From Verrucomicrobiales bacterium (GTDB lineage Bacteria; Verrucomicrobiota; Verrucomicrobiia; Verrucomicrobiales; DEV007): a DNA stretch of 64,000 nt. Positions within the stretch are counted from its first letter, which is position 1, and every line of letters begins with the position of its first letter. The translations under genes were made by a program, and so were the position numbers. The stretch is taken from the NCBI GenBank assembly GCA_029213025.1, contig JARGOZ010000003.1:1-64000 (forward strand). Direction: 5' to 3'. The notes below the pieces were generated by a model. That model had not been told where the DNA came from and made no database searches. It worked only from the letters and a program-made list of their open reading frames with translations. This document shows, piece by piece, positions 26,914-44,607 of the stretch.

Positions 26914-27003
26914 GGTTGGGTGGCAGAGTGGTCGAATGCGCTTCTTTGCTAAAGAAGTGAACCTTAACGGGTTCCGTGGGTTCGAATCCCACCCCGACCG
27001 CCA
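26914..27003 (+). tRNA. tRNA-Ser (anticodon GCT), CCA encoded
   Basis: The acceptor stem GGTTGGG pairs with CCCGACC (one G-T pair), followed by discriminator G and encoded CCA at 27001-27003. The anticodon stem-loop is CTTCT-TTGCTAA-AGAAG, giving anticodon GCT for AGC/AGT codons. The long variable arm AACC/GGTT is diagnostic of class II serine tRNAs. The T arm is GTGGG-TTCGAAT-CCCAC. A TTGACT box at 26852 is a possible -35, but the matching -10 is weak. The truA-derived fragment starts 28 bp downstream. Confidence 0.97.
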
Positions 27004-27030
27004 TTTTTCTTTCGTATTTCGCTCGAGCAG

Positions 27031-27160
27031 GGCATCGAGGCAATCCTGGTAGATGCTATCGCTCAACTTTGCGGTGAGGAGACTACGGTCGTGGCGAGCG
27101 GTCGAACCGATGCCGGGGTTCATGCCAGCGGTCCAGTCGCACATTTCACTCTGGAATCCC
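27031..27160 (+). pseudogene. Internal truA fragment (130-bp direct duplication of 43864-43993)
   Basis: This stretch aligns without gaps to 43864-43993 in the intact truA, with 8 differences in 130 bp. It encodes GIEAILVDAIAQLCGEET and the catalytic-Asp motif GRTDAGVHASG. It has neither the start nor the rest of the gene. Five of the eight differences are synonymous in the truA frame (GGT/GGC, TGT/TGC, GGC/GGT, GTC/GTT, AGT/AGC). The others change Gly to Ala and Gln to Pro. This pattern suggests divergence while still part of a working gene, so it may have arrived from another strain's truA. It marks the left edge of the island. Confidence 0.88.
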
Positions 27161-27186
27161 TCCCTCCGGGACCTGCCAGGCAGGGA

Positions 27187-27700: not shown

Positions 27701-28876
27701 TCAGGCGGCAATAGTTTCAAGGACCGATGCGAGGTCGATGTTCCATGCTTCATCAACCCTCACTAAATTGCTCAGCTTGCCTTCGCAATGCTTATGTGGC
27801 TTTAGCGTTGAAGTAGGGCAAAACGAGAACTCCCACTTTTCAGTGCGAGGGTGGAGGCATGCTGCCAATATTTGAAAATCACTGCGCGAGTAAAACCTCG
27901 TGCATGGATCGTTTTTTGACGCTCTCGTTTTCTGAAAATCCACTTTGGTTGTGCCGTCAGCAAGTGGGATTCGAAGGGCATTTTTGCATTCGATAAATAT
28001 AGGGGCCGATTCTTGATAGATGACTTCGAAATCAGGCTTACCATCTTCTTCAATTTGTCTGAAGTTATCGATACCGGGAGTCAATTGAATCAAATTCCCC
28101 AGATGTTTCTCAGCAACCCATCCTCGAACGGCCATCTTTAATCGAGGTGCGGCTTGAATCATGTTTAGAATTTCATCTTCAGAAATTTCAAATTCCAGAG
28201 CCAAATCATGTATCAGTGTTTTTGGTGGCTCGTTACCGACTATCAATCCGCTCTCCGATGGAAAATTACCCGAGTAACTATCCAGATTTTCAGCGAGCAA
28301 ATAGCGATGACCTTGATCCAATCCGCTTGCCGCCTGTTCGAATCTTACATAGTCGAAAAATCGATCAGATTTTCCGCCTACCATAACTTCGATCGGTTCA
28401 TCACCTCTCCTATCCCGCTCCCAGAAATGCCATCCATGATCAAGGATTTGCTCAACCTCTTTTCGCTTGAATTCGATCGATATAAAGAATTTGGTCCATT
28501 CGTGAATCAGTGGGTCAATACCGACAAAGATCTCGCGTTCCAAATCAATCCCCACGATTAGCGTTGTGTAAAGCTGGTAAGGATCCTGCCAGATTTGATG
28601 GATCTCCGATGTTTTCGGCCCATACTTTATCTGAAACCGATGCTCATCTTCGGGGCGATTCTTCGTTAGTTTTGAGTTGGCGGTGAAAGGGTATATAATG
28701 ACTCCGTATTTACAGCTGTCCGGACCCTCGAAGGTAATTCGGAAAGGAGCTTTACCGGAATCAGATGACGCCAGAATTCGACAACCAGATTCTCCAAGTG
28801 AACGAAGGATGAAATCCAACATCCTCTGCTTTCCGTCTTTGCCTCCCTTCTGAACGGAATACTCCCGGTAGTTCAT
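27701..28876 (-). CDS. Predicted type II restriction endonuclease (PD-(D/E)xK)
   Basis: The 391-residue protein has a C-terminal nuclease-like core: DGKPDFEVIYQ followed by APIFIECKNALR, fitting the PD...(D/E)xK pattern of type II enzymes (about residues 285-305). The N-terminal 250 residues (GKAPFRITFEGP, HEWTKFFISIEF and others) look like a target-recognition or effector domain that I cannot place. The start overlaps the methyltransferase stop as ATGA (28873-28876), so the two are translationally coupled, as in restriction-modification pairs. It should cleave DNA lacking the partner's cytosine methylation. Specificity is unknown. Confidence 0.75.
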   Translation of the reverse strand: MNYREYSVQKGGKDGKQRMLDFILRSLGESGCRILASSDSGKAPFRITFEGPDSCKYGVIIYPFTANSKLTKNRPEDEHRFQIKYGPKTSEIHQIWQDPYQLYTTLIVGIDLEREIFVGIDPLIHEWTKFFISIEFKRKEVEQILDHGWHFWERDRRGDEPIEVMVGGKSDRFFDYVRFEQAASGLDQGHRYLLAENLDSYSGNFPSESGLIVGNEPPKTLIHDLALEFEISEDEILNMIQAAPRLKMAVRGWVAEKHLGNLIQLTPGIDNFRQIEEDGKPDFEVIYQESAPIFIECKNALRIPLADGTTKVDFQKTRASKNDPCTRFYSRSDFQILAACLHPRTEKWEFSFCPTSTLKPHKHCEGKLSNLVRVDEAWNIDLASVLETIAA

Positions 28877-30102
28877 GAGTTGGCGAGGCTCTGCACTTTC
28901 AATGCTCCTGGACCTTTACCGGTCCCTGGATGATCGGCATGCGCCCCCTCTAAATGTAAATATTTATCCAGGACATCTTCTATCGGTTCCGGAGGAGGAC
29001 AGTCACTTCTCTTCGCCGGGATGAGCGAAGGTGTCATATTCTCGTATTTCGATTCACCAAAAAGCCTTGCTCTCATTTTCAACGCAATGAATTCAGCCAG
29101 TCCGGAAGGGACTGCGTTTCCTATTTGTTTCTGAGCCTCTGAGCGGCAGCCCAACACCTTGTAGTCGGCTGGAAACGTCTGGATCGCTAGCATTTCTTCC
29201 GCAGATAAATGTCTATTTTGCCAATGGAACGGACCTGTGGCCGGTCCGGGTTGGGCAGTAATGGTCCATGATGGTTTATTCTTTGCAACTTTGAGCAGGA
29301 AATTCCAAAAGCGGCGACGCCAGCCGAACAAAGGTAATCCTTCGCCTCTATCTGTATGGTATAGATAGTTGGTACCTTCGGGAATCGATGAAAGTAAATC
29401 TGCCCATTTACCTTTCAATTCGAGATTTTCGCTGCTCTCGTTAAGATGTCCGATCGCGTCCCAAACTGTAGTGAGTGGTTGCATGTCGTTTGCAAACAGG
29501 TCGGCGTCATTCACGTCGCCATGGGTTTGTTCGAGTTTGCCAATTTTCCTGCCATCACGATGCCCTATAATAAACACCCGCTCTCGAAGCTGAGGAACCC
29601 CGAAATTGACAGCATTAAGCCGAAAGTACTCAGGGTCGTAATTTGTGCCCCGCTTTTGATTGATTTCGCCTATCCTTTCAAAAATGTAATCCAGTCCTTC
29701 CGATTTATTTTTGTAAGAAATCCCTGCAACATTCTCGATAAGGAAACTTTCAGGACAGGAAGTTTCCAGAATTCTGAAGTAGGCGTCCAATGTTGCAGCT
29801 CTTGGGTCTTCGAGCCTCTTTGAATCACCAGTTGCCCAGAAACCGGACTTCGAGAATGGCTGGCAGGGCGGCCCCCCGATTAACACGTCAACCTCTCCCG
29901 CTCGCAACTCTCCTGTTTTCAATATTTCAGATGACGCGTAATTATGAATGTCGCAATTAATGACCGGCCAATCCCTGTTGTGGCGAAGTGTCTCAGCGCA
30001 TCGCCTGTCGAATTCAAGGGCCACGCGAGTCTCAAATCCAGCCGCCTCGAAGCCTAAATCAAGGCCTCCAGCACCCGTAAATAGGCTGACAACACTTCTC
30101 AT
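28873..30102 (-). CDS. DNA (cytosine-5)-methyltransferase of a restriction-modification system
   Basis: The 409-residue protein has C5-methyltransferase motifs in order: I (LFTGAGGLDLGFEAAG), IV with the catalytic Cys (GGPPCQPFSKSG), VI (ENVAG), VIII (GVPQLRERVFIIG) and X (QIGNAVPSGLAE). It transfers a methyl group from SAM to C5 of cytosine in a target site and protects host DNA from the coupled endonuclease. It is divergent from the TOTE-type gene across an 83-bp AT-rich region that must hold both promoters. The target-recognition region lies between motifs VIII and X; its specificity cannot be read from sequence. Confidence 0.94.
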   Translation of the reverse strand: MRSVVSLFTGAGGLDLGFEAAGFETRVALEFDRRCAETLRHNRDWPVINCDIHNYASSEILKTGELRAGEVDVLIGGPPCQPFSKSGFWATGDSKRLEDPRAATLDAYFRILETSCPESFLIENVAGISYKNKSEGLDYIFERIGEINQKRGTNYDPEYFRLNAVNFGVPQLRERVFIIGHRDGRKIGKLEQTHGDVNDADLFANDMQPLTTVWDAIGHLNESSENLELKGKWADLLSSIPEGTNYLYHTDRGEGLPLFGWRRRFWNFLLKVAKNKPSWTITAQPGPATGPFHWQNRHLSAEEMLAIQTFPADYKVLGCRSEAQKQIGNAVPSGLAEFIALKMRARLFGESKYENMTPSLIPAKRSDCPPPEPIEDVLDKYLHLEGAHADHPGTGKGPGALKVQSLANS

Positions 30103-30185: not shown

Positions 30186-33071
30186 TTGCTCATTTTCGGA
30201 TTGAATCAACCCTGCAGATGCCCCCTCAACCAATCCTGTTGCGCGAAACCAATTCAAACGCCAGTCTTGCTCATCGAAACCACGCAACAATCGTCGCCTG
30301 CGGAAAAGATCGCCCTATTCCGATCCTTATTTCGAGGCCGCGAAGACGTTTTTCCGCAGCGATTTGAAAGCCGGAAAACCGGCAGATGCGGATACTCTCC
30401 TGCATGCCACAATGAGTGGGTGCGCGGGATTTGTGAGAAACCGAAAGTGAAGTGCTCGAACTGCGCGCACCAAAAGTATATCTCTGTGTCAGACGAGATA
30501 GTGGAATGGCATCTGACGGGTAGAGATCAATTCGGGAAACCGTTCGTGATGGGGGTCTATCCAATGCTTCCCGATGAGTCTACCTGGTTTCTTGCCGTCG
30601 ATTTCGATGGTAAACAATGGCAGACAGATACTCTCGCTTTTTTGGATTCGTGTGCCCAATTCGATGTGCCCGCTTACCTGGAGCGTTCACGCTCTGGCAA
30701 TGGTGGCCATGTATGGATCTTCTTCAATCAGCCGGTATCCGCTGCGCTGGCACGAAGAATGGGCTCGTTTCTCCTGACGCATACTATGGATTCGCGCCCG
30801 GAGCTTGGCTTTGCTTCTTATGATCGCCTATTTCCCAACCAGGATACTTTGCCGAAGGGCGGCTTTGGGAATCTGATTGCCGTTCCGCTACAGAAATTGG
30901 CAAGGGACCAGAACAACAGTGTATTTGTCGATCCGAAATTTGCAGCCTATCCGGACCAATGGGAATTTCTATCTTCGGTTGATAAAATGACCCTTTCATC
31001 GATTGAGCTGGTTGCCGCGGAGGCTGAAAAGAGAGGCGGCGTGCTGGGTGTAAAGACCGTTTCCTCTGAAGAAGAAGAATTTTCACTGGCTCCATGGTCA
31101 GCACCGCCATCAAGACAAATATTAAATGCGATTGCTTCGGAGGAACGCCCAATTTCTCTTGAATTGGTTTCGGGAGACGGAATCTATATCGAGAAAAAAG
31201 TTCTTTCTCCCAAACTTCGCAATCGAATCATCCGGTTGGCAGCCTTTCAAAACCCCGAGTTCTACGAAGCCCAGGCAATGCGTTTGCCTACTTACGATAA
31301 ACCCCGGATCATCAATTGCACTGAGGATTCAGGTCAATACCTGACCTTACCCAGAGGCTGCGAAGATTCACTCAAAGCGCTTTTTTCGGAATTGGATATA
31401 TGTTTAAGTAATCGTGATGAACGCCACTCTGGAGAAAAGATCGACTGTCAGTTTCAGGGCGAACTTCGTCCAGAACAACAAAAAGGTTCCAACGCGCTGC
31501 TAAAACATGACACAGGTGTTCTTGCTGCCACTACAGCTTTCGGAAAAACCGTTCTCGCCGCCTGGATGATCGCTCAACGCGGAGTGAACACGCTCATTCT
31601 CGTTCACCGAAAACAGTTGATGGATCAATGGGTAACACGGCTCACCGAATTCCTTGATATAGAAGAGAACCAAATCGGACGATTAGGTGGTGGCAGAAGA
31701 AAGCTGAAAGGCAAAATCGACATAGCCATCATTCAGAGCCTGGTTCGAAAAGGAGAAGTAGATGATCGAATAGCAGACTATGGGTATATCATAGTCGACG
31801 AGTGTCATCACATTTCCGCTCGAAGTTTTGAACTCGCAGTTTCCCGTGCAAAGGCAAAATACATTACCGGGCTGTCGGCGACGGTGATTAGGAAAGATGG
31901 CCAGCATCCGATCATATTTATGCAATGCGGCCCTGTCCGGTATCGCGTTGATGCTTTGGATGAAGCAAAAGAGCGCGAATTCAGCCAGAATGTAATCGTG
32001 CGCCCGACAACGTTTCAGGGCTTTTTGACTGAAGAATCAACCGATGACCTTCGATTCGATTTCATCAAACTTTGCGAAGAAATTGTAAATAATCCAACCC
32101 GGAATCAACAGATCGTCTCAGACATCACCAATGCGTGGCAAAATAAGCGAAACTGTCTCGTTTTAACCGAACGCACCGATCACCTTGCTATACTGGCAGA
32201 TCACCTTGAGGTGCTTAAAATACCGACAATTACGCTGCGGGGAGGCTTATCCAAACGTGAATTGGCTGGCGCTGTCGAGTCGATCGAATCAGATCAACAG
32301 CGCAACGTTATACTGGCGACCGGCGGTTTTGTTGGTGAGGGGTTCGACCATTCCAGCCTGGACACTTTATTCATCACTATGCCGGTATCCTGGAGAGGAA
32401 CAATTGCCCAATATGCCGGTCGCCTACATCGGAATCATGAAGGCAAAACCGAAGTCATCATTTATGACTTCGCAGATTTTGAAGTGCCCATGCTCGCCCG
32501 GATGTTTGACAAGCGCCAGCGAGGCTACGAAGCGGTTGGTTACACAGTAACCATCCCTGCTCACGCCCTGCCGGGTTGGCCGTCCGAAGTCCCATTACCA
32601 TTCGATTCGCAATGGAAACAGGAATATATCGATAGTGCGAGACGACTGATTCGAGATGGACTTGATGTTGAAATAGCCAGGCTGTTTTCGGCCGCAGCCA
32701 CAATGCCTCACGATGCAGAAGGGAAAGATCGAGCCCGGAGTGCCAGCGAGGCTTTTCTATACCAGGTTTTAGAACGACGTGTAGAAACCAAAGGGCACTT
32801 CGAACTTAACGGAACGCTTCCGATTCCTTTCGGGTCCAATTCAGAAATGGAGGTTGATTTTCTGTCCCGCGCCCATCGAATTGCAATCGAACTTGATGGC
32901 AGCCAACACCTGACACCGGAAGCGTACAGGACTGATCGCTATAAAGATGTGTTGCTACAAGAAAATGGCTATTTCGTTTTGCGTTTTTTAGCAGGAGATA
33001 TCGGCAGATACCTTGATCGCGTGCTCGATCGTATTGACCTGACACTGTTGAGAAGACAGGAAAAGCAATGA
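30186..33071 (+). CDS. TOTE-type conflict protein: AEP primase, SF2 helicase, DUF559 nuclease
   Basis: Up to 961 residues. An archaeo-eukaryotic-primase-like domain of the TOTE type covers about 45-270: GYSPACHNEWVRGICEKPK, catalytic-type FLAVDFDGKQW, then SGNGGHVWIFF. An SF2 helicase follows, with Walker A TAFGKT, DECHH, TGLSATV and a QYAGRLHRN motif VI. The last 90 residues are a DUF559-like nuclease (EVDFLSRAHRIAIELDG). TOTE proteins are predicted DNA-targeting conflict systems. No ATG is in frame near the N-terminus. TTG 30186 opens the frame, and an ATG at 30217 lies in another frame, so the start is uncertain and a 5' frameshift or truncation is possible. It is divergent from the methyltransferase and may extend that system. 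Confidence 0.8.
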   Translation: MLIFGLNQPCRCPLNQSCCAKPIQTPVLLIETTQQSSPAEKIALFRSLFRGREDVFPQRFESRKTGRCGYSPACHNEWVRGICEKPKVKCSNCAHQKYISVSDEIVEWHLTGRDQFGKPFVMGVYPMLPDESTWFLAVDFDGKQWQTDTLAFLDSCAQFDVPAYLERSRSGNGGHVWIFFNQPVSAALARRMGSFLLTHTMDSRPELGFASYDRLFPNQDTLPKGGFGNLIAVPLQKLARDQNNSVFVDPKFAAYPDQWEFLSSVDKMTLSSIELVAAEAEKRGGVLGVKTVSSEEEEFSLAPWSAPPSRQILNAIASEERPISLELVSGDGIYIEKKVLSPKLRNRIIRLAAFQNPEFYEAQAMRLPTYDKPRIINCTEDSGQYLTLPRGCEDSLKALFSELDICLSNRDERHSGEKIDCQFQGELRPEQQKGSNALLKHDTGVLAATTAFGKTVLAAWMIAQRGVNTLILVHRKQLMDQWVTRLTEFLDIEENQIGRLGGGRRKLKGKIDIAIIQSLVRKGEVDDRIADYGYIIVDECHHISARSFELAVSRAKAKYITGLSATVIRKDGQHPIIFMQCGPVRYRVDALDEAKEREFSQNVIVRPTTFQGFLTEESTDDLRFDFIKLCEEIVNNPTRNQQIVSDITNAWQNKRNCLVLTERTDHLAILADHLEVLKIPTITLRGGLSKRELAGAVESIESDQQRNVILATGGFVGEGFDHSSLDTLFITMPVSWRGTIAQYAGRLHRNHEGKTEVIIYDFADFEVPMLARMFDKRQRGYEAVGYTVTIPAHALPGWPSEVPLPFDSQWKQEYIDSARRLIRDGLDVEIARLFSAAATMPHDAEGKDRARSASEAFLYQVLERRVETKGHFELNGTLPIPFGSNSEMEVDFLSRAHRIAIELDGSQHLTPEAYRTDRYKDVLLQENGYFVLRFLAGDIGRYLDRVLDRIDLTLLRRQEKQ

Positions 33072-33211: not shown

Positions 33212-33601
33212 ATGAAGCCCGATCAACCGTCTGACCTCGAATTACAAATCCTGTCAGCCCTGTGGCGACTCGAGCCCGTCCCGGTTCGCAAACTCCTCGA
33301 AGAATTGCCCGATGGCAAAAAACGGGCTTACACCACGGTGCTCTCCGCCCTTCAGGTGATGGAAAAGAAAAAGCTCGTGACCCGGGAGCGGGATGGAAAG
33401 ACGGATCAATGGTCCTCGGCGGTCACTCAGAGTGAAATCCTCGGCAGCCAGGTCGACCGACTCGTGGATCATGGATTCAACGGGCGCCCCAGTTCGTTAT
33501 TACAATGCCTACTCGATCGAAAAATCGAGCCCGATGAACTGGATGCGATCAACGAGCTTCTGGAGGCATATCGGAAACAATCACCCACTGAACCCAAATG
33601 A
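33212..33601 (+). CDS. blaI: BlaI/MecI-family transcriptional repressor
   Basis: The 129-residue protein has the penicillinase-repressor winged helix: SDLELQILSALW at the N-terminus, YTTVLSALQVMEKKKLV as recognition helix and wing, and a C-terminal dimerisation helix rich in Leu/Glu. Length is typical. The gene overlaps the sensor gene by ATGA (33598-33601), and two matching operators precede it. In the family, proteolysis triggered by the sensor inactivates the repressor and opens the operon. No beta-lactamase gene is nearby, so the induced target may be the pair itself or unlinked genes. Confidence 0.93.
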   Translation: MKPDQPSDLELQILSALWRLEPVPVRKLLEELPDGKKRAYTTVLSALQVMEKKKLVTRERDGKTDQWSSAVTQSEILGSQVDRLVDHGFNGRPSSLLQCLLDRKIEPDELDAINELLEAYRKQSPTEPK

Positions 33602-36600
33602 GCACAGTATTGGAATGGTTCGACACGCCCGCGTGGCAGACCCTCGTTCGCTCCTTTGGGCATTCCCTCTGGGCCGGCACCGTGATCGCATTGCTTGCCG
33701 TCATTTTGGTTTGGTCGATCCCCGCAAAGTGGGCAAACCTCCGTTACCTCCTCGCACTGTCGGCGCAACTACTCATTCCATTGCTTACCGTTGTGGTTTG
33801 GGCCCTGCTTTTTCACTCTGGCAAAGTTTCCCGACCATCGACAAACAACTATTTGCCAAGTCCGGTGGTAGCGACGCCCGCCCCAACTACAGAAAACGTC
33901 ATCCAGTCCCCGGGAATTACCCAAACCATAGCCGATAATATAGCAGAACCTTTTCACTGGTCACCACTGGTGTGTTTGTCATGGATCTCCGGCACCCTTT
34001 TCTTTCTCACGATACTTTTTCGCGACGCCCGCTCCGCCGCCGATTTGGTTAGAAAAAGATCCAGCACGGAGAGTCGAATAGAGTTTCTCGAGCCTTTGCT
34101 CAGCGAACTGAAACTAAAGATTGGCATCAGCTCAGAGGTCTCACTCCGAACCTGCGGGCAGATCATCCACCCCGCAGTGACGGGATTTTTAAAGCGGGTC
34201 ATTTTGATCCCGGCTAATCTACCGGAGAATACCTCGACAAAAATGTGGAGGGTGATTCTCGCTCACGAACTGGCCCACATAAAGCGATATGACTACCAGG
34301 TAAATTTGATTCAGCGGGTCTGCGAATCGATCCTGTTTTTCAACCCTGCGGTGTGGTTTCTCGGAAATCTCGCCCGGGAGGAAAGAGAGGCCGCCTGCGA
34401 CTCACTGGCGAGCCGTGCCGTTTCCGATCAACGGGAAACCTATGTCGAAGGTGTCGCCGAGTGGATTAAAATGACCGCCGGAACAACCGGCAGAACTCCC
34501 ACGCCGCTTATGTCAATGGCCGGGCAACGACCGTCTGGAATCTCCGCCCGGATGAAGCGCATCCTGTTCCCGACTCACCGACCGGCACCTACGATCAACC
34601 TCTCATCGGTTTTGGTATCGATCCTCCTGGTCGGTTTTGCCGTCTGGTCGATTCACAGCGTTTCGATCCGCGCCGCTGACATACTCACAGGTAAAGAACG
34701 CGCCCGAATCAGTTCATCTCTTCGCGCCGAAACCCCACCCGCGATAAAACGGACGGATCCGTACGAACTGAAAATCAATATCCGGGACGAGCAGGGCCAA
34801 CCATTTGAAAAGGCATTTCTCGACAAGCTGGTATTGTCTCTCAATGTGTCCCACGAGAACAGCGCCCTTTCGACCAATTTGTCGAACCATCAGAATTTCA
34901 CCCGGAAAATCGAAGGCGGTGTCAGTCAAATCCGCTATTTCTCACCGGAATGGGTTCCGGTCTCGAGCCCCTGGATGGCTCCTGAACCAGAGGAAAACGA
35001 AATGGAACACACCATTACCCTCAAAAAAGGAACGGACAGTTATCTAAAGATTCTGAATGAAGCAGGAGCGCCGATAGGCAACCTGGATTTCAATCTGGTA
35101 TTCAACGGCCGCGGACATCATCAGAAGGTGACCAGCAATACCGATGGCACCGTGACTCTACAACTCGATGAACCGGCAGAATTCACCCTTTACCTATATG
35201 ATAAAAACTATGCCTGGTGCGATATTGATTCCATAAAGGTGCGCCCCGGGGAAACCACTCCGGTGACGATACCAAATAACGCTCCTTTTACGCTGACGAT
35301 TCTGGACGAGACCACCGGAAAACCGGTCGCTGATGCAGAGATCCGAAAAGCCAGAGAATTCGATTATGCCCACCGCCCTCTCGGCACTACCGATCGTGAC
35401 GGGCGAGTCATCATCCATCAAATGACGCGAAACGAAATCCGGGATTTGTGCGTCATCAGCCCCGAAGGACACCGTGCCTTCCTCACCGATCTTTCGCCCT
35501 ATCATGGAGAGAACCAAACCAGACAGATCCCGGCTCCAAGACGGTTAAGCGGCACACTGGACTTAACTCAATTGACTGGCGTGGAGCCGGATGCCTCCGG
35601 TCGTTACCCGCTAAAGATCAACGGCGGGACTTCATGGGAAAAAGGTCATACCAACGGATGGAGACAAAGCGCACTGACAGATCCAGCAGCAAACGGAACG
35701 GCCAAATTCCGAATCGAAAACCTCTGGCCCGGCAGACTGACCCTTTCAGCTGGAAATGCCGAGTGGCGAACTCCGGATATCGACTCGGCAACAGAACCCG
35801 TGGTATTTTCGGCATCGACGCCGAAAACCATACTACCCAACCAGCGGGAAAAGCTTGGTGAACGGGATATCGTAATCGACTTCAAGGCACCTCAAGGAAC
35901 CGAGCCTTGGGATGGAGACGTCAAAGTGTCGACCTACGGAATCGACGGATGGGAACATACGAAACAAAGAGTAGTGGCAGGAAAAATGATATTCCGTGAT
36001 GCACCGATCTATTTTCCGCTCACCATTGAAATCAGCCCGGAATGGTCCGACGGCTTCTGGTTTCAAGAAAAGCGAATCTATATTTCGAAGCGCAACGAAA
36101 TCCCTTCAGAAAACGAAGCGATCCAAGCTGAGATACCGGTAGTGGAAGCCGGAGGCATCAAAGGAAAAATCCTGGAGAGCGATGGCACCCCGGCGAGCGA
36201 TCTTTTGATCTCAGTCCGACATGTTCCGGGTGAAGGGGAAAATAAACTACGCAGTCTCCCCCCGATCAAAAACAGTTCCCAATCGAACGACCAGATCAGT
36301 GAATTCTTCGCCGCTCCACTTCCTCTGGGCTACTGGTATCGACTCCACATTTATAGAAAAAATACGCGAATCGCCAGCGATCCCATCTTCATCGGCCGGG
36401 AGAAACCGTTTCTCGAGACGACTCTGCAATTCACTGAGGGAGTATCCGTAACAGGCCGTGTCATCGACTCCGCAGGAAAACCTGTCGCAGGGGAAACCGT
36501 GCAATTGATCTACACAGCTCCGGAAGGCGGAATCTTTTCCAATGAGGGAATCGAGACCCATTTTGATGGAGCCTTTCAGTTCGAAAGAGTCAACCTGGAT

Positions 36601-36699
36601 ATTCCGGGCAGTTACTATCTGAAATTTGGTGGAGATGAAAGCGGATATCACATCCCCGTAACTGCTCATAAACATTCAAAACTGATTTTGAAACGGTAG
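33598..36699 (+). CDS. BlaR1/MecR1-like M56 metalloprotease sensor with carboxypeptidase-regulatory-like extension
   Basis: This 1033-residue protein has an N-terminal M56 peptidase with membrane helices at about 18-40, 44-65, 125-145 and 338-360. The zinc motif HELAH lies near 223-227, with a downstream EREAACDSLA supplying the third ligand. BlaR1 proteins end in a penicillin-binding sensor domain. Here the roughly 650 periplasmic residues are instead several beta-sandwich modules of the carboxypeptidase-regulatory or prealbumin-like kind (TILDETTGKPVADAEIRKA, GRVIDSAGKPVAGETVQLI). The ligand sensed is therefore probably not a beta-lactam. The pair should work as sensor protease and repressor. 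Confidence 0.85.
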   Translation: MSTVLEWFDTPAWQTLVRSFGHSLWAGTVIALLAVILVWSIPAKWANLRYLLALSAQLLIPLLTVVVWALLFHSGKVSRPSTNNYLPSPVVATPAPTTENVIQSPGITQTIADNIAEPFHWSPLVCLSWISGTLFFLTILFRDARSAADLVRKRSSTESRIEFLEPLLSELKLKIGISSEVSLRTCGQIIHPAVTGFLKRVILIPANLPENTSTKMWRVILAHELAHIKRYDYQVNLIQRVCESILFFNPAVWFLGNLAREEREAACDSLASRAVSDQRETYVEGVAEWIKMTAGTTGRTPTPLMSMAGQRPSGISARMKRILFPTHRPAPTINLSSVLVSILLVGFAVWSIHSVSIRAADILTGKERARISSSLRAETPPAIKRTDPYELKINIRDEQGQPFEKAFLDKLVLSLNVSHENSALSTNLSNHQNFTRKIEGGVSQIRYFSPEWVPVSSPWMAPEPEENEMEHTITLKKGTDSYLKILNEAGAPIGNLDFNLVFNGRGHHQKVTSNTDGTVTLQLDEPAEFTLYLYDKNYAWCDIDSIKVRPGETTPVTIPNNAPFTLTILDETTGKPVADAEIRKAREFDYAHRPLGTTDRDGRVIIHQMTRNEIRDLCVISPEGHRAFLTDLSPYHGENQTRQIPAPRRLSGTLDLTQLTGVEPDASGRYPLKINGGTSWEKGHTNGWRQSALTDPAANGTAKFRIENLWPGRLTLSAGNAEWRTPDIDSATEPVVFSASTPKTILPNQREKLGERDIVIDFKAPQGTEPWDGDVKVSTYGIDGWEHTKQRVVAGKMIFRDAPIYFPLTIEISPEWSDGFWFQEKRIYISKRNEIPSENEAIQAEIPVVEAGGIKGKILESDGTPASDLLISVRHVPGEGENKLRSLPPIKNSSQSNDQISEFFAAPLPLGYWYRLHIYRKNTRIASDPIFIGREKPFLETTLQFTEGVSVTGRVIDSAGKPVAGETVQLIYTAPEGGIFSNEGIETHFDGAFQFERVNLDIPGSYYLKFGGDESGYHIPVTAHKHSKLILKR

Positions 36700-36728: not shown

Positions 36729-36759
36729 GGACAGATCGGCTGTCCCCAGTGTGAACGCT
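36729..36759 (+). repeat. Hairpin-forming direct repeat, copy 1
   Basis: GGACAGATCGGCTGTCCCC followed by AGTGTGAACGCT. GGACAG and CTGTCC are inverted copies around a 5-base loop. Further copies lie at 36784-36814 and 43475-43505, all in the same orientation. Confidence 0.8.
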
Positions 36760-36783: not shown

Positions 36784-36814
36784 GGACAGATAGGCTGTCC
36801 CCAGTGAGAACGCT
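36784..36814 (+). repeat. Hairpin-forming direct repeat, copy 2
   Basis: GGACAGATAGGCTGTCCCC followed by AGTGAGAACGCT, two differences from copy 1. Its last base is part of the stop codon of the 1800-residue NTPase, so the element abuts the sigma/NTPase module exactly. Confidence 0.8.
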
Positions 36815-39800
36815 TACGCAAACTGGTCTTGGATCTTTAGTGCCAGGGAGTATTGCAGGCTGCACAGAGTTCGAAGAACATGATGAAAAGTAGTTGCGGC
36901 ATTTGGGTTACCTTCTAAGTCATCTCGGTTTTCCAATGATATTACTTCGATTAATTTCAAAGCCCCATGATTCGACCTATTGCCGTATTTCCAATAATTT
37001 ATATGCATATCTATGACTTTATCTTTCATCACTCCAAGTAAATCGATTCTCGAGTCACTCGCTACTGGTCCGGCAAGAAAATGTAAAACCTCGTCAATCT
37101 GGTCATCAGACAGTTCACCGGTGACGTAATTTTTGTATTCCGGGACGATGCCCTCAAAAAAGACTTGGTAGGACTCGTCAAGATGGGTAGCACTAATTCG
37201 GTCGCCGTGAAAAAACAGCATTTGAGTAAATTCCTTTTTATGATAATCCGCAGATAAAGAGTAAAAACTAGATTTAAAAAAACGGTCGATCAAAATCTTC
37301 CAACACCGGATTAGAACTAACTGATCATCGTGCGATTGAGCCCCATATTTTAATAGATCTGAAAGAAATGTGTATGTGTGGGAGCTTCCACCTTTGCCAA
37401 TTTTTAATAGATTATCCCACGTTTTCAGCAACCTCTCTTGATCGAAAGATCTAATCGTTCTTAGAGCTTCTCTTCCCAAAATAAAGCGGTCGGAAGGATA
37501 ACAGTCCCAATGCTCTTCCAAATATGCTTTTTCTGGGAAAACGCTCGATAAAGAATCGACTAATAGACCATCTATGAAAGAAATTTCATGGACATCGCGA
37601 TCGTCTTCGGATCCCGAGAATAGTAAGGGATTCGCTGCGGAGATGAAGAGATCAAAATCGAACCAATAACTTGCCCTGTTGAGGGTGTGTTTGTTTTGGT
37701 CAACGCTTTCTTTAGCTGGTATCTCAATATTCCATTCCGAGGGATAGTTGTCCTCCCATAGATTCGACCATTTCTCTTCAAGGACCCTGTCCTCAGTTTC
37801 GGAGTCTAATTCACCACATTTTGAACAATTCTGCCGAATTTGGGAGAATTTAAGTGCAAATGTAAGTAATGGATAATAGTCATCTCCGATGACTTCCCGT
37901 AATACCCAGAACTCTTGAAAAAGGGTCTGAACTGTAAAGTTTCTAGCCCTCCGTGCAAACGCAACACATAGTTGGCGAATATCCTGGTTGTCCGGTTCGA
38001 TTGTAATCATCCAAGGAATAGCGATCGCCAAAAAATGTTCACCGTCGTGATGCGCGTCATCGCGACCATAGTGCCGGCATATCGGTGGGGATTCTATCAA
38101 TTCCCAAAATGCTTTCTTTATGTCTTTACAAATCGAATCGTTTTCAATCAACACTTTGTGGCCAAGCTTCAAACAAACCGCCACTAAAGCTGATTTTGCA
38201 TGGCGAGGATCCCGCAAAGCCGATTCAAAGCTGCCGATTGAAGTTGGGATTTCCCATTCGGTTACTTCTTCAATTTTTTCAGCTATGTTTTTTACCTCTT
38301 CCAAAGTCAATGCACGGCCATCGGTGATGAGATTCCTGCCCCACATAGGTATTTGAATTTTCTGCTGCTGCTGAGAATTCTCAGCAATTGCGTCTTTATT
38401 GACTAATTCATCCGGGAATTCGCACCACCAATACTCACCACCTTTAGAATCTGTTTTTGATTTCCAATTTTTCTTCTCAAATTGAAATGACAGACGCTTC
38501 ATCTCGATTTTCTTGGCTCCCGAAGTTGACTCACTAAGGTCCTGGTAATGAGTGGTCAGATCTCTGAATAGCGCATTAAATATTGAATCTTGAGCACCTA
38601 CTCGCATCAGGAATTCGGATAGACGAATATTTCGATTCTCACGATTCAACCAACTATTTCGTGCCTTGTATGTGTGTTCGTTATCACGATAATCATACAA
38701 TTCAGGCACGGAATGCTCAATCACCGCTGCCAGATCAAAATCAAAGATGTTTGGATCAAAAAGTAATGGTTTAAGGGCGTCGCAAAAAAGTCGCGGGCAA
38801 CTCTTGCCTACACATACTAGAACACCAGCCAGTGCTGTCGACTCGCCCTTTGAGAAAATCTTGGAAACGATGGGATTGATAGATTTATCATCTTCGCTCT
38901 GAACTATAAGCCACTGCTCCAGTGCCATTAAAGCACAAGAAACTATGTCAACTGTGTTCAGGTTATCTCTATTCCATGAGTAGGTATGGCTCCACCCCTT
39001 CCAATCGACCTGTTCGCTCCCGATTTTAAGGGTAATGGTCGAGGGATTTGGGACGGAGTGTGGCCACCAATCGTATAATCGGTCAGTTGCAAAATTTGTA
39101 AGTGCCACAATCATTTCGAGAGCAGGTTCCCAATCTGACTCAAGAAATTGATAGAACGAAGCTTTAGTCCAAAATGGAGGACTAAAATCGAACCCTGAAA
39201 ATGTAAATCCGTGATGATCCGCCATCGTCGTGTCTCGAAATTCAGAAGAACTATCAGTAAATTCGCGTTTGGGCCACTCGATCAAGAAAGCCAAAGTTGC
39301 CTCGCAAGCCGCTTCCGGAGCAACTTTGAAAAGTTCAATTGAATGCTTACTTGTAAGATATTCCTTGGCGAACTCTCTTGAAATTGCATGCTTTGGTCCG
39401 AGATCCCAACTTGCAATTGGGAAGACTATTTCGGGTTGCCTACTGAAAAATGAATTACCTCTTTCGTATTTTCCTACCCATTTTTCATCGATCTGACCCG
39501 GTGTTTGAGACGATATAGCCTTTCGTCCGGACGCTATAAGGACGAGATCAGAAATCTCGTTAGGGTATTCCGAACTAGCCAATAAGCAAGCTCTGTATAT
39601 CGCTGAATGGTGAGAACGGCTAATTTCACCTGTGATTTCTTTATCAAGCTCTTTCGCGCAATTGTCTACCAAGACTTTTGCGAATCCAGTCCAGATTTCG
39701 CAAATTCGCTCACCAAATATTTCTGCAGAATCGTCGTGAGTAAAAGCACTTGCGAAAATTACCCCAAAATTTGCTAATTCTACTGGAATGTCTTGAACAA

Positions 39801-42216
39801 CAAGCTTGTTTTCCTGTTCTAAAAACTGTGCAACCCCGAGCCAATGCAGGATTTTGGGAAACTTGGCTTCAGGGAAGTCAAGTTCGTTTTCATTCATGTT
39901 AAACTTTTCACATATTACAAGATACTGAGGGTTTACTACAGTAGCTACGGCTTGAATTCTCTGCAATAACCTCTCGAGCAATCTGCATTTTTCGTTTACA
40001 AGTGAATCACGAAGCACTTCCAATTTATCAAGTTGCTCGTCGGCGAATATCAATGCGTCGAGCCAAAGATCCAAGTATACTGCTGACTCAGTATCTGATT
40101 TTAGCCGTAAACTGAATTGTTCAACATTTTGTAACCAATTATCCACATCATCTCGAAGCTCAGTTTCGGCATATAGTTTTATTGACCTCATCCATGCTGG
40201 GCAATCACTTTTGCCTTGAATAAGATTGATCGGTCGCTCTTCGGATCGTATCGAAAGATAACGGCTCCAATCACTTAGCAAATCGTGTGAAAATTCGATT
40301 CGTCCTTCCGGATTCTTTCGTAAAATCCGGCTTTCAACTAACTCTTCCCCTTGAACCTCTTTACCAATGAAAAAGTTTTCCGTCAGAGACTTGGTGCGTA
40401 TATTTGCCAATTCAATCCCTACCTCTTTAGCAAGATTTGCCGCTGGGGACATTGTTTTGCCGCGCATAACTTGGTCTTTCCACCACCATTCAGCAATCTC
40501 AGCCTCATTGGTCAACGACGTGCCTGTTCCTGGATTTCCTGAAACGACAACGTCGAGGATTTTTACATTGGATAAGAGGCTTTTGATTTTGGGATCATAG
40601 GCCAATCTCCGTATATCGGGATGAGTGGAAGCTACTGTTTCAAAATCAATTTCGGAGAGTTCTCCAACCTGTATATTTTCTAAAGAGCGGAGAGGGCATT
40701 GTTTTAGAAGAGGGTGCACCGAACGTTTCCAATCAGCTTCACTACTTTGTTGAGTAATGAAAACGATCTTCCACGGGTTGGACTCTGAGTTTGTTGCTTT
40801 AAATAGTATCTTACCAATGTTGCTCAGCACGCTATCGTTATAAAAATCGTCTAATCCATCAATGACAATCAGGCCTTCGGGGTTGCTGCTTCGCTCGAGA
40901 ACCTCTCCCAAATTCGGAACCTTCGCGTAGAGATCCATAAAACGGTCGGCGGTGAGCCAAAGAACCGGTGTATTTGCTTGGATGAACTGGTCAGCAATCC
41001 ATTTTACTAATGCACTTTTCCCGGTGCCTGATTGTCCAAAGATCCGCACCACTTCGGCTGAATTAAGAACGGATTCTATGTTTGATTTATCTGTTGCTCG
41101 ATCTAAGCGGAGGCCACCGAAAAGAAAATTATCTATTACCTCAATATTTTCGTTTGTGTGATCGTTGATCGTTGCCCATAAAGGTTCGTCGAATACATAG
41201 TTTTCGAGTAAATGTTCTTTCCGGATTTTCTCGATTAACTCGCTCCGTGAACAGCTTCCTCCTTCTCTTATTTCCCGCGCAATATTTAATAATGTCGTCC
41301 ACAGACTATCTATATTTGCATCAGTCCGGTGTGAGTTTTTAAGTACGTTACGGCAATTCTCTTTGGCAGATCTTAGGCTGGTAGAATTATTCCTCTCAAA
41401 GTCGAAGTCACAGAAGTAGAATTTTTTGAGGAGATCGCCAGGTTTCGCGGAGGCCTTTAAATTCGGAGAGGCAAAGGAGTTCAACACCTTTTGATATTTA
41501 TTATGAGGATTATCGGAATCGAGTTCATCACTGGTTTTAATGCGGCTTTGCCGAAGAAGTGAGTTAAGAGTCTCTGACGTTCCTTGAGCTATGGGACTAG
41601 AAAATAGAGCCACGAATAGGTTTGATTTTGAGGTGAACTGCTTCTTTTCGTCGGCTTTCCAAGCGGTCTCGTTTATATCGCCTTTCAATCCATTTTCAGT
41701 TACTGTCTTAAAACTCTTGATAGACACTCCAGTTTCAGAAAACTGTTGATCCTTTATAAAACTTAATACCAAGTCTCCAAAAGGCTCCCAGGATTCGTCC
41801 TGCCGCTTTAAATGGACAACTTTTCCGAGGTCATTTATCGAATCTCTTCCAGATAATATCTCGGTAAAAATATAAGCAACGACATGATCCTCAAAATCAA
41901 AACCCATTCCACTTGTTGATTTTAGGCTTGGAGTATTCTTCTTTGTCTTTGGCGGTACCGAGGGTCGCAATAATTCAGACGGATCAACCAGCGGATTGGG
42001 CACGGCTGGCGCTGCGATTTCCACGATTTCGTCGTTACCCGCTTTTCTTGTGTCGAGAGCGTTTTTGAGCAATGCGTCAGTTGTGAGATACTTAGCTGCA
42101 ATTTCGCGCGCGGCCGTGTTATCTCTAAGCATGGTATTTAATTCTGTCCGTTCGCTCTCGGTGAACTCCGGATCAGAAGACTTTTGTAGTAGATCTTCAA
42201 GTCGAGTTGTATTCAT
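36814..42216 (-). CDS. Anti-sigma-like N-terminus, predicted nuclease and STAND-type NTPase, giant protein
   Basis: The protein has 1800 residues. Residues 1-55 (LEDLL ... TESERTELNTMLRD ... YLTTDALL) look like the N-terminus of FecR-type anti-sigma partners found beside ECF sigma factors in this phylum. Residues about 105-170 (GFDFEDHVVAYIF, a D in FGDLVLS near 148 and SIKSFK near 165) resemble the Cap4/Mrr-like nuclease domain of large defence ATPases. A P-loop NTPase follows, with Walker A FGQSGTGKSALVK (about 393-405), Walker B GLIVIDGLDDF (about 448-458), and a winged-helix end IEFSHDLLSDWSRYL. The remaining roughly 1150 residues are mainly helical without recognised repeats, the usual place of the sensor in Avs/STAND receptors. 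ATG overlaps the sigma stop by one base (TAATG). The DNA is visibly AT-richer than the flanks. Confidence 0.7.
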   Translation of the reverse strand: MNTTRLEDLLQKSSDPEFTESERTELNTMLRDNTAAREIAAKYLTTDALLKNALDTRKAGNDEIVEIAAPAVPNPLVDPSELLRPSVPPKTKKNTPSLKSTSGMGFDFEDHVVAYIFTEILSGRDSINDLGKVVHLKRQDESWEPFGDLVLSFIKDQQFSETGVSIKSFKTVTENGLKGDINETAWKADEKKQFTSKSNLFVALFSSPIAQGTSETLNSLLRQSRIKTSDELDSDNPHNKYQKVLNSFASPNLKASAKPGDLLKKFYFCDFDFERNNSTSLRSAKENCRNVLKNSHRTDANIDSLWTTLLNIAREIREGGSCSRSELIEKIRKEHLLENYVFDEPLWATINDHTNENIEVIDNFLFGGLRLDRATDKSNIESVLNSAEVVRIFGQSGTGKSALVKWIADQFIQANTPVLWLTADRFMDLYAKVPNLGEVLERSSNPEGLIVIDGLDDFYNDSVLSNIGKILFKATNSESNPWKIVFITQQSSEADWKRSVHPLLKQCPLRSLENIQVGELSEIDFETVASTHPDIRRLAYDPKIKSLLSNVKILDVVVSGNPGTGTSLTNEAEIAEWWWKDQVMRGKTMSPAANLAKEVGIELANIRTKSLTENFFIGKEVQGEELVESRILRKNPEGRIEFSHDLLSDWSRYLSIRSEERPINLIQGKSDCPAWMRSIKLYAETELRDDVDNWLQNVEQFSLRLKSDTESAVYLDLWLDALIFADEQLDKLEVLRDSLVNEKCRLLERLLQRIQAVATVVNPQYLVICEKFNMNENELDFPEAKFPKILHWLGVAQFLEQENKLVVQDIPVELANFGVIFASAFTHDDSAEIFGERICEIWTGFAKVLVDNCAKELDKEITGEISRSHHSAIYRACLLASSEYPNEISDLVLIASGRKAISSQTPGQIDEKWVGKYERGNSFFSRQPEIVFPIASWDLGPKHAISREFAKEYLTSKHSIELFKVAPEAACEATLAFLIEWPKREFTDSSSEFRDTTMADHHGFTFSGFDFSPPFWTKASFYQFLESDWEPALEMIVALTNFATDRLYDWWPHSVPNPSTITLKIGSEQVDWKGWSHTYSWNRDNLNTVDIVSCALMALEQWLIVQSEDDKSINPIVSKIFSKGESTALAGVLVCVGKSCPRLFCDALKPLLFDPNIFDFDLAAVIEHSVPELYDYRDNEHTYKARNSWLNRENRNIRLSEFLMRVGAQDSIFNALFRDLTTHYQDLSESTSGAKKIEMKRLSFQFEKKNWKSKTDSKGGEYWWCEFPDELVNKDAIAENSQQQQKIQIPMWGRNLITDGRALTLEEVKNIAEKIEEVTEWEIPTSIGSFESALRDPRHAKSALVAVCLKLGHKVLIENDSICKDIKKAFWELIESPPICRHYGRDDAHHDGEHFLAIAIPWMITIEPDNQDIRQLCVAFARRARNFTVQTLFQEFWVLREVIGDDYYPLLTFALKFSQIRQNCSKCGELDSETEDRVLEEKWSNLWEDNYPSEWNIEIPAKESVDQNKHTLNRASYWFDFDLFISAANPLLFSGSEDDRDVHEISFIDGLLVDSLSSVFPEKAYLEEHWDCYPSDRFILGREALRTIRSFDQERLLKTWDNLLKIGKGGSSHTYTFLSDLLKYGAQSHDDQLVLIRCWKILIDRFFKSSFYSLSADYHKKEFTQMLFFHGDRISATHLDESYQVFFEGIVPEYKNYVTGELSDDQIDEVLHFLAGPVASDSRIDLLGVMKDKVIDMHINYWKYGNRSNHGALKLIEVISLENRDDLEGNPNAATTFHHVLRTLCSLQYSLALKIQDQFA

Positions 42217-42758
42217 TACTTTTGTGCCTCCTTTGCAAGTTCCAATTTAATGCATTCGGCTAAACTATTTCTGAGTCGTTTGAGCTGCATTTTAACGGCG
42301 CTAAGACCACGGTTTTCGGCTTCTGATATTTCATGAATCGTTTTCCCATCAGCGTAAAAGTCAGTTAATACTCGTTGGTTTTTGGGACTGACTTTGTCGA
42401 GGCAAGTCTCCAAGGCGTTTAAACAGTCCGGATTCGAAGTTACGATTTGCGCCGAAGCATCGACCATTTTCTCTGCAATATCGGAATCAAACAGCATCCG
42501 CTCCTTCTCCCGATTCCGGTCTCTTATGACTCCCTTAATTTCGAATTTTGCAACAGCAGTTGCCCAAACGAGAAATGGAGTTTCTCGACCCCAAGTTTCG
42601 GATTTTTTCCATAAAGTGAGATTAGTCCGCTGCAAAGCTTCATCAGCATCACGTCCCCGACCGAGCGAAGCAGTACAAACGCAGCGGAGAGCATTTTGAG
42701 ATTCGGTCAATGCCTTCACGAAATGGTCTTCAGGCGCGTCTGTGGGAAAGTCTGGCAT
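42216..42758 (-). CDS. ECF-type sigma-70 family RNA polymerase sigma factor
   Basis: The 180-residue protein has sigma region 2 (LRCVCTASLGRGRDADEALQ, then NLTLWKKSE and FLVWATAVAKFEI) and region 4 helix-turn-helix (KVSPKNQRVLTDFY, KTIHEISEAENRGLSAVKMQ). It resembles the Rhodopirellula/Verrucomicrobium subgroup (TIGR02989), whose genes usually precede a FecR-like membrane anti-sigma gene. Here the downstream, translationally coupled partner is the STAND NTPase. Its target promoters are not identified; the roughly 50 bp upstream show no convincing repeated box. Autoregulation of the pair is the simplest guess. Confidence 0.88.
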   Translation of the reverse strand: MPDFPTDAPEDHFVKALTESQNALRCVCTASLGRGRDADEALQRTNLTLWKKSETWGRETPFLVWATAVAKFEIKGVIRDRNREKERMLFDSDIAEKMVDASAQIVTSNPDCLNALETCLDKVSPKNQRVLTDFYADGKTIHEISEAENRGLSAVKMQLKRLRNSLAECIKLELAKEAQK

Positions 42759-42797
42759 GTCTGTTCAAGAATTAACTCCACTAAATCGTAGTTTTGG

Positions 42798-43475
42798 TCA
42801 CATTTTTCTTTCAAAATTGTTGAAAATTTGGCTTCGATAAGTAATTCTCGATGATTTTTCTTCGTTGGGATACGAATAGTGCTCGATTGAATTGCCGTGA
42901 TTGTTTAGATGCGTGGTGTACCAATTGCCCAGTGTCTTGTGACCCGGCTGGCCATAACCCGGCAGCTTGACGTAGTTGCCGATAAAGTTCATTTTTGCAT
43001 TCTTGGCCGCCAGCATCACGATAGGCTGTTCGATGCCGTTGCAGTGGTGGTGGGCTTCGCCGTTCTCGGCCTGGTAGGTGATGACGGTGTTGTATAACAT
43101 GGTGCCGTCGCCCTTCGGGCGTGGCTTTGAACGCCTCGACCATGGCGGTCATCAGGCGAATGTGGTGCATCCGAATATAGGCGCGAACTTCATCGGCGGA
43201 CTTGCCGGCGTGGCCCAGGTTGTGAAGGTTCAGGATACTGCCTTCGTCCAGTTGCGGGAAGCCGGTGTAGGCAGTCCCGAGTGTATCGAGGGTGAAGAGT
43301 GCGGAGTTAGTAGGTCCGGCCCGCATGGCGCTGACGAGAATCTTTGTGAAGGCTACCTGCTTTTCTTTGGTGGTGCGACCGCTTGCGAAATCGGCTTCGT
43401 TGACGTTGGGAATATTGTTGAGTATCTGATCGGAGATTGCGTTGATCTGGCGATCACGATCTTTGATGTCGTTAG
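42798..43475 (-). pseudogene. Decayed DUF1552 gene fragment (5'-truncated, frameshifted)
   Basis: Two overlapping minus-strand frames make up one protein-like sequence. The upstream part runs from DIKDRDRQINAI through RMHHIRLMTAMVEAFKATPEG. The downstream part continues in another frame as MLYNTVITYQAENGEAHHH to NFIGNYVKLPGYGQPGHKTLGNW. The break is at about 43110-43113, where one extra C in CGCCCTT would restore the frame if removed. The order matches the C-terminal half of DUF1552 proteins of planctomycetes and verrucomicrobia. The 5' end stops at the hairpin repeat copy 3. Sequencing error at the C-run is possible, but truncation remains. Confidence 0.75.
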
Positions 43476-43505
43476 GCAGATAAGCTGTCCCCAGTGAGAA
43501 AACGC
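43475..43505 (+). repeat. Hairpin-forming direct repeat, copy 3
   Basis: GGCAGATAAGCTGTCCCC followed by AGTGAGAAAACGCC, similar to copies at 36729 and 36784 and in the same orientation. It truncates the DUF1552 pseudogene and bounds the sigma/NTPase module on its upstream side. Confidence 0.75.
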
Positions 43506-43764
43506 CAGTAAGAAAACGCAATGAACTATGTTTGGGGATGGTGCAGTGATGATATTCCAAATTCCCATGCTCATCCCTGAGGAAACGGTCAAAGCCTTTC
43601 GATGAACTACCGGGAAAAAAGGATTTTGCCTTCGCCTAATTTTTTGCGCTCTTTTCAAGGAAATTTCAATTCTGTCAATTACCGTGAGAGAACGGACTGC
43701 GGAACCGGTCCCGGATCGGGAATTACACCTGGCATCTTTGTTTTCTATCGATAAACTTTCGCTC

Positions 43765-44607
43765 ATGGCCTCCAAATACGCCATCCTGATCGCATATGAC
43801 GGATCCGAATTCTGCGGATGGCAGGCCCAGCGCGGCGTTGGCCAATACGAAAATCGCAAGCGGGGTATCGAGGCAATCCTGGTAGATGCTATCGCTCAAC
43901 TTTGTGGCGAGGAGACTACGGTCGTGGGGAGCGGTCGAACCGATGCCGGGGTCCATGCCAGTGGTCAGGTCGCACATTTCACTCTGGAATCCCCCCGCGA
44001 CTCGGAGAAAAACTTTCTGAACGGACTCAACAACCTCCTACCGGAGTCGATCAGGATTCACCGGCTCGGCCACGTTCCGGATTCGTTCAACGCCAAGTTC
44101 ACCGTGCGCAAACAATACAGCTACTATTTCCAGTCCGGGCCGGCCAACCTGCCGCATCTGCGGGCCTACTCGATGTGGAATCGCTACGACCTCGATGAAG
44201 ACCTGATGCAGGAGGCGCTGCAACACCTCATCGGCGAGCATGACTTCCTGCCTTTCTGCGGTGGTGGAGCGAAGGTTTCCTCTACGGTTCGGAAAATCCA
44301 TGAAGCGGAAATCACCCGGGAAGCGATCCCCCGGCCCGGTTGTTTTGACTCCTCCCGCCACCATCTTCTACGGATGCGAATCTGTGGTTCCGGGTTTCTC
44401 AAATACATGGTTCGCAGTATCGCCGGCACATTGAAACAAATCGGTGAAGGCCGCCGCGCCCCTAATGACATGGCTGAAATTCTGGAGAGCAAAGATCGCG
44501 GCCAGGTGGGACCAACCGCACCGGCCGGCGGACTGTGGCTGGACCGGGTCTGGTACCGGAAGCAGAGCGGAATCGATTTTCTGGACCAGATCGATGCGGG
44601 CCGGTGA
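43765..44607 (+). CDS. truA: tRNA pseudouridine synthase A
   Basis: ATG 43765 gives 280 residues starting MASKYAILIAYDGSEFCGWQ, the standard TruA opening; the frame from 43684 adds an unlikely N-terminus. The catalytic Asp lies in SGRTDAGVHASGQVAHF. Other TruA landmarks are KQYSYYF, HDFLPFCG, FLKYMVRSIAG and PTAPAGGLWLDRVWY. It converts U38-U40 in the tRNA anticodon arm to pseudouridine. The gene is intact even though 130 bp of it are duplicated at 27031-27160. It is convergent with the next gene, with only 8 bp between stops. Confidence 0.95.
   Translation: MASKYAILIAYDGSEFCGWQAQRGVGQYENRKRGIEAILVDAIAQLCGEETTVVGSGRTDAGVHASGQVAHFTLESPRDSEKNFLNGLNNLLPESIRIHRLGHVPDSFNAKFTVRKQYSYYFQSGPANLPHLRAYSMWNRYDLDEDLMQEALQHLIGEHDFLPFCGGGAKVSSTVRKIHEAEITREAIPRPGCFDSSRHHLLRMRICGSGFLKYMVRSIAGTLKQIGEGRRAPNDMAEILESKDRGQVGPTAPAGGLWLDRVWYRKQSGIDFLDQIDAGR

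Follow-up and report, generated by a model that had tools for sequence, protein, structure and literature searches.

An ECF Sigma Factor Gene Coupled to an Avs4-Like STAND Nuclease with an N-Terminal Anti-Sigma Domain in a Verrucomicrobiales Bacterium

Introduction

Avs proteins are phage-sensing effectors, and their output consists of cell-killing enzymes. Can such a receptor also hold a sigma factor, and so act on transcription? The question is raised by two genes in a stretch of 64,000 nucleotides from a Verrucomicrobiales bacterium (hereafter the window), which is part of a 126-kb contig in an assembly of 7.9 Mb and 338 contigs. An ECF sigma factor gene and a giant gene are both present as open reading frames on the same strand (Table 1). 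They overlap in a TAATG, shared between the sigma stop and the giant start, as the original prediction for this locus had described. Analyses of sequence and predicted structure support a giant protein composed of an anti-sigma domain (ASD), a PD-(D/E)xK nuclease, a STAND NTPase, and a helical sensor, coupled to the ECF sigma factor.

Table 1. Features of the two-gene locus and of the neighboring genes (window positions)
Feature	Position	Strand	Basis or remark
ECF sigma factor gene (P0002), 180 aa	42216..42758	-	Sigma70_r2, Sigma70_r4_2, TIGR02989, nearest relatives
Giant gene (P0001), 1800 aa: ASD, nuclease, STAND NTPase, and sensor	36814..42216	-	
Predicted anti-sigma domain (ASD), residues 1-58, four predicted helices	42043..42216	-	Own-genome ASD HMM, shuffle test, structure prediction
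Disordered linker, residues 59-104	41905..42042	-	Low pLDDT; membrane helix at the same place in ordinary anti-sigma relatives
PD-(D/E)xK (Cap4-like) nuclease domain, residues 105-270	41407..41904	-	Conserved residues, predicted secondary structure, Foldseek Cap4
Walker A GQSGTGKS, residues 394-401	41014..41037	-	
STAND/NACHT-like NTPase, residues about 370-640	40297..41109	-	Pfam AAA, family nSTAND/NACHT matches, Foldseek
C-terminal helical sensor, residues 641-1800	36817..40296	-	Foldseek Avs4, NCBIfam Avs4
Likely sigma-autoregulated promoter, ATGTGACC-N16-GGAG	42776..42803	-	Element kept in five genus-mates
C5 cytosine methylase and methylase-associated X1 (MTaX1) partner	27701-30102	-	Likely restriction-type pair
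TOTE conflict-system primase-helicase with DUF559 nuclease domain	30186-33071	+	
MecI-type repressor overlapping 1033-aa BlaR1 peptidase with carboxypeptidase-regulatory domains	33212-36699	+	

The Sigma Factor and Its Relatives

The sigma protein matches Sigma70_r2 (2.8e-7) and Sigma70_r4_2 (5.9e-6), both above the Pfam cut-offs. Against TIGR02989 it gives E = 4.4e-31 and 108 bits; as the cut-off of 124.55 bits is not reached, it is not filed as a member, although it is clearly an ECF factor of the Rhodopirellula/Verrucomicrobium type and of the TIGR02989 group. There are 47 TIGR02989 matches in the same genome. For most of the best-scoring sigmas among them, the gene directly after encodes a protein with a short helical segment at its N-terminus and, beyond this, a membrane helix near residue 70-110; two further partners with an ASD and a membrane helix are found among other loci.

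The closest relatives of the window sigma are the sigma genes of five genus-mates (G663, G637, G608, G612, and G616), which adjoin ASD-TM-FecR genes. The ASD of the giant protein has its nearest relatives at the same five loci, all of the ASD-TM-FecR type (the sigma gene of G608 is partly masked). On these relationships, the predicted ASD is seen to have been co-inherited with its sigma. The window and the sigma/FecR locus of G663 share nothing else in synteny besides the sigma and the ASD.

An Anti-Sigma Domain without a Membrane Anchor

The Pfam FecR profile has no match in the giant protein, because ordinary anti-sigma proteins carry their FecR domain outside the ASD, further toward the C-terminus. 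An HMM was built from 16 ASDs at other loci of the same genome and searched in about 6000 sequences. It matches the giant protein at residues 1-56 only (E = 1.1e-7, the best of 6000 shuffles being 0.09), and as a control it recovers two held-out anti-sigma proteins with E = 1e-13. In a genus-mate, the gene for an anti-sigma protein (451 aa, Pfam FecR 7e-6) follows that of a sigma sharing about half of its residues with the window sigma; a Smith-Waterman alignment of the N-terminus of this anti-sigma protein with that of the giant protein scores 120, and 1000 shuffles give a mean of 30 and a maximum of 50. The FecR-like anti-sigma segment proposed at about residues 1-55 is thus borne out by the HMM and by the alignment, not by Pfam FecR. 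By homology with the ASDs of its own genome and genus, the segment of residues 1-56 is shown to be a genuine anti-sigma domain.

In the predicted structure there are helices at residues 3-12, 20-32, 34-43, and 46-58. The block mean pLDDT is 77-87 for residues 1-40 and 51-56 for residues 41-60, so that the first three helices are confident and the fourth less so. Class I anti-sigma domains consist of a three-helix bundle and a fourth helix on a linker (PMC7406223). In the linker of the giant protein, the block mean pLDDT falls to about 30 at residues 61-100, and disorder is predicted up to about residue 104. By KD-19, there is no membrane helix after the ASD: the maximum is 0.71 within residues 1-120 and 1.36 over the whole protein, against 1.6-3.0 among the ASD partners of the same genome. 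All the other ASD partners that were seen have a membrane helix after the domain, and the window pair is the only one without it. Hence, two features of the anti-sigma class are present, the N-terminal helical ASD and the gene placed directly downstream of an ECF sigma, and the third, the membrane helix-FecR domain, is not. Sequence and model together show a protein in which the membrane and FecR parts are absent and the predicted ASD leads, via a disordered linker, into a soluble protein.

The orthologous pairs are of the FecR type (with a FecR domain in L017), and in E. coli FecR, ECF activity depends on the first 59 residues (PMC7406223). If residues 1-58 were such a pro-sigma segment, the triggered receptor would activate the sigma instead of releasing it. 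This is very improbable, as the segment, with its four helices, looks like an ordinary class I anti-sigma domain and E. coli FecR belongs to a group described as unusual (PMC7406223).

Two other loci (L073 and L075) were considered as further giant ASD fusions and rejected; their sequence reads as ASD-TM-cytochrome/DUF1549-type proteins. In these, the ASD and its membrane helix are fused to apparent planctomycete-type cytochrome/DUF1549 parts, which constitutes another outlet of the same ASD family.

An Avs4-Like Receptor

The Cap4/Mrr-like nuclease pattern of the original prediction corresponds to GFDFED at residues 105-110, D148, and S165-I-K167. E109, D110, D148, S165, K167, and the Walker A motif, which lies at 394-401 as foreseen, are invariant in 12/12 aligned sequences, and the alignment of homologs also shows conservation of D453 and of HD at 644-645. 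Homologs devoid of the nuclease and P-loop motifs had been named as an observation that would speak against the proposal, and the motifs are kept. The predicted secondary structure of the nuclease domain follows the order alpha-beta-beta-beta-alpha-beta, which fits PD-(D/E)xK. The NTPase region matches Pfam AAA above the cut-off and nSTAND weakly, and members of the receptor family match nSTAND1, nSTAND5, and NACHT.

When a model of residues 1-700 is compared with known structures using Foldseek, the top PDB match is Avs4 (8dgf, E = 8.7e-14, TMq 0.28), followed, for this N-terminal half, by structures of Avs3, NOD2, NLRC4, NLRP3, and Cap4; the last agrees with the proposed nuclease type. Residues from about 640 to 1800 are predicted to be helical, in line with the roughly 1150 helical residues noticed at the outset. 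For the model of residues 640-1800 the top match is again Avs4 8dgf (E = 9e-18, TMq 0.50), and the next unrelated match has E = 4e-5. Avs4 is also the top family among those of NCBIfam/PADLOC. The match to the NCBIfam Avs4 family (NF041815) has 66.4 bits and E = 8e-19, is best at residues 949-1274, and misses the curated cut-off of 1500 bits. The giant protein is therefore a relative of Avs4, but by this cut-off not Avs4 itself, and as sequence identity to Avs4 is low, the ligand of Avs4 cannot be transferred to it. Conserved motifs and structural models show that the soluble receptor retains the nuclease, the NTPase, and an Avs4-like sensor.

Distribution of the Coupling

Homologs of the receptor are present in order-mates, on proteobacterial and cyanobacterial plasmids, and in other bacterial genomes. 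A scan of contigs with the single giant protein gives no relatives, and the same scan repeated with an alignment gives 13. The nuclease-bearing homologs start at STSGAGFxFED, which corresponds to the region of residue 100 in the window protein. Among about 30 homologs that have the STAND core, none has an ASD, and no ECF sigma was found by phmmer or HMM beside them in the flanks inspected, some of which are short or ended by contig ends. As homologs begin exactly at the nuclease and lack both the ASD and an ECF neighbor, the ASD and the sigma represent a matched addition. In one homolog (L014, 571-6090), a phosphorylase-superfamily domain (PNP_UDP_1, PF01048, 1.5e-14) occupies the place of the nuclease, and thus effectors are exchangeable on the receptor core. 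The genome of one order-mate carries on a single contig (G617:C44; L013, L018, and L106) two copies of the ASD-less receptor, about 7 kb apart.

No adjacency of a sigma and a STAND gene was found elsewhere among about 1,100 distinct genomes of the phylum (an estimate and not an exact count, as the searches overlapped), and the pair is a singleton. The original prediction had held that an adjacency unique to this genome would count against it, and within the sample this is what we find. Hence, the anatomy it proposed stands up to sequence analysis, structure prediction, and comparison with homologs, but within the sample the adjacency does not extend beyond this genome.

Another reading is an assembly chimera, in which a receptor gene of other origin has been joined to a sigma/anti-sigma locus; the assembly has 338 contigs and an estimated contamination of 4.5%. 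Yet the junction lies within a single frame of 1800 codons, free of stops, in the middle of the 126-kb contig; the sigma, the ASD, and the receptor all have a lowered GC content (0.41-0.46); and no contig of the genome ends in an orphan FecR half. From the GC content and the lack of this orphan half, misassembly is judged unlikely, indeed the least probable of all the readings considered here.

The Promoter Element

Upstream of the orthologous sigma gene, 5/5 genus-mates have the element ATGTAACC-N15/16-GGAG. In the window this element recurs, changed by a single transition, 17 bases ahead of the ATG of the sigma gene, and the surrounding DNA is unrelated. An equally good match occurs in 7/20000 random stretches of 100 bp, and the DNA upstream of 21 other sigma genes of the same genome shows 4-6 mismatches. 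The element is a likely candidate for an ECF-autoregulated promoter, as judged from this footprint in the sequence. In a search for a wider regulon, the strict pattern has three matches in the 7.9-Mb genome, two of them inside open frames; the only one at a gene start is that of the operon itself, and thus no wider regulon is visible.

Further upstream of the sigma, at 42798-43560 on the minus strand, lie what appear by eye to be the remains of a DUF1552-type gene, with a broken frame and no Pfam match. In L017 and L088, an intact gene resembling it seems to follow the orthologous sigma/FecR pair.

The kept promoter bears on the idea that the fusion is vestigial or accidental, i.e., that a sigma/anti-sigma operon took up a receptor gene, which kept the operon promoter and carries the ASD as a passenger. 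The pair is a singleton in a horizontally acquired island of lower GC (receptor 0.41-0.43, window 0.51), and the STAND core works elsewhere without an ASD, all of which fits. However, both the sigma and the ASD are intact and continue to fit their families at positions that are conserved among relatives, the promoter element has been kept amid unrelated DNA, and no remnant of the FecR half with >39% identity was found in the genome. An accidental fusion is therefore improbable, if less so than a pro-sigma segment.

Triggered Release or Constant Expression

The association of an ASD-bearing receptor with its matching sigma gene suggests an immune sensor that is also able to switch on genes. We see about an even chance that the pair is a hybrid in which the cytoplasmic clamp of a membrane-bound ECF anti-sigma factor has been joined to an Avs4-like STAND nuclease, so that the receptor sequesters the sigma and frees it when triggered. 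In a fuller version, which is plausible and held slightly less firmly, an NLR-like receptor would keep an ECF sigma stored on its own chain and let it go when a phage protein is sensed, with a DNA-cutting arm, a gene-activating arm, and positive feedback. At rest, the translationally coupled sigma would be bound by residues 1-58 of the receptor. Upon binding of a phage protein by the sensor (in Avs4, the portal), the receptor would assemble and activate its nuclease, and the sigma would be freed from the linker-tethered ASD by a conformational change, by crowding, or by proteolysis. The free sigma would then drive its own operon, giving positive feedback, and possibly other genes. One sensor would thus serve a nuclease arm and a transcriptional arm. 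Pfam reveals no protease domain in the sigma or in the giant protein, and the nearby BlaR1-type peptidase gene (33598-36699) has its own MecI-type repressor; another protease may be involved. As the ASD and the sensor are at opposite ends of the chain and the linker is flexible, the way in which triggering would be coupled to release is not obvious.

The strongest rival to triggered release requires binding only, and no release. The sigma would drive its own operon and the ASD of the receptor would titrate the sigma, keeping a dangerous nuclease receptor at a steady level; phage sensing as such would release no sigma, and expression would rise only when receptor is lost. The overlap of the genes and the single strict gene-start promoter match, the operon's own, are what one would expect from such a loop, and toxic defense proteins are commonly under tight expression control. 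Nevertheless, about 30 related receptors do without any sigma gene, and the sequence does not distinguish this arrangement from triggered release. We regard it as unlikely, though to be taken seriously. Triggered release is preferred because in the parent pairs a sensor part on the same polypeptide governs the ASD, and because there are known defense systems in which an ECF sigma is set free.

Related Systems

Avs4 (AVAST type 4; 8dgf, bound to the phage portal) shares with the giant protein the succession of a nuclease, a STAND NTPase, and a long helical sensor. Unlike Avs4, the giant protein also begins with an anti-sigma domain and has an ECF sigma gene coupled to it, and it scores 66 bits against the 1500 of NCBIfam. 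The pairs of ECF sigma and FecR-type membrane anti-sigma factor of Verrucomicrobiota and Planctomycetota (with TIGR02989 sigmas) have in common with the window pair the sigma family, the ASD, the gene overlap, and the promoter element, but the window pair lacks the membrane helix and the FecR domain, and its sensory part is a cytosolic immune receptor. MalT-type regulators are likewise STAND NTPases whose output is transcription, and the structure 8bob of a MalT system is among the Foldseek matches; they differ by having neither a nuclease nor a sigma factor. MalT binds DNA itself.

Sigma release in defense has precedents. In Craspase (type III-E CRISPR Csx29/Csx30/CASP-sigma), a defense sensor also controls the release of an ECF sigma from its inhibitor (PMC10028731), but there an RNA-guided protease cleaves a separate inhibitor, whereas in the window the inhibitor domain is within the STAND receptor and the pair has no protease. 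In the CalpL/CalpT/CalpS system of type III CRISPR, an infection signal frees a sigma factor (PMC12751052), with the difference that a cA4-activated Lon protease acts on a separate anti-sigma protein, CalpT. The EACC2-caspase systems with ECF sigma neighbors (PMC8195603) are likewise predicted to act in conflicts and have an ECF sigma coupled to them; they are caspase-centered and have neither an ASD fusion nor an Avs-like receptor.

Since Craspase and CalpL/T/S already have a releasable ECF sigma, the idea of a defense system with its own transcriptional response, at which the original prediction arrived, is not new. Its statement that the architecture is undescribed agrees with our search: no STAND/Avs protein with an anti-sigma domain was found in the open literature, a scope that leaves aside most subscription papers and preprints. 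What is new is the anti-sigma domain on an Avs-like receptor, found in one genome; the component families and defense-linked sigma release were already known. If triggered release is correct, we know of no earlier STAND immune receptor that acts as an anti-sigma factor. Bacteria would then wire one sensor to transcription, in parallel to the eukaryotic NLR-like receptors that feed gene expression, with a protease-free design beside the CRISPR-linked sigma systems. With its two genes and a candidate promoter, the pair is compact and amenable to work in a laboratory host.

The Surrounding Island

The locus lies in a defense island, whose other genes are given in Table 1. The region of lower GC follows a tRNA-Ser (26914-27003). 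A direct repeat of 138 nt (93%) is found at 27026-27163 and 43859-43996; it is a truA fragment, located by the tRNA-Ser and the intact truA gene. It brackets a lower-GC island of 16.8 kb that holds the defense genes, and it looks like the trace of the island insertion. A smaller, palindrome-like repeat, GGACAGATnGGCTGTCCCCAG, has exact copies at 36729-36749 and at 36784-36804, by the end of the giant gene, and a degenerate copy at 43474-43494, beyond the sigma. These copies, of which 0 are expected by chance, bracket the two-gene cassette.
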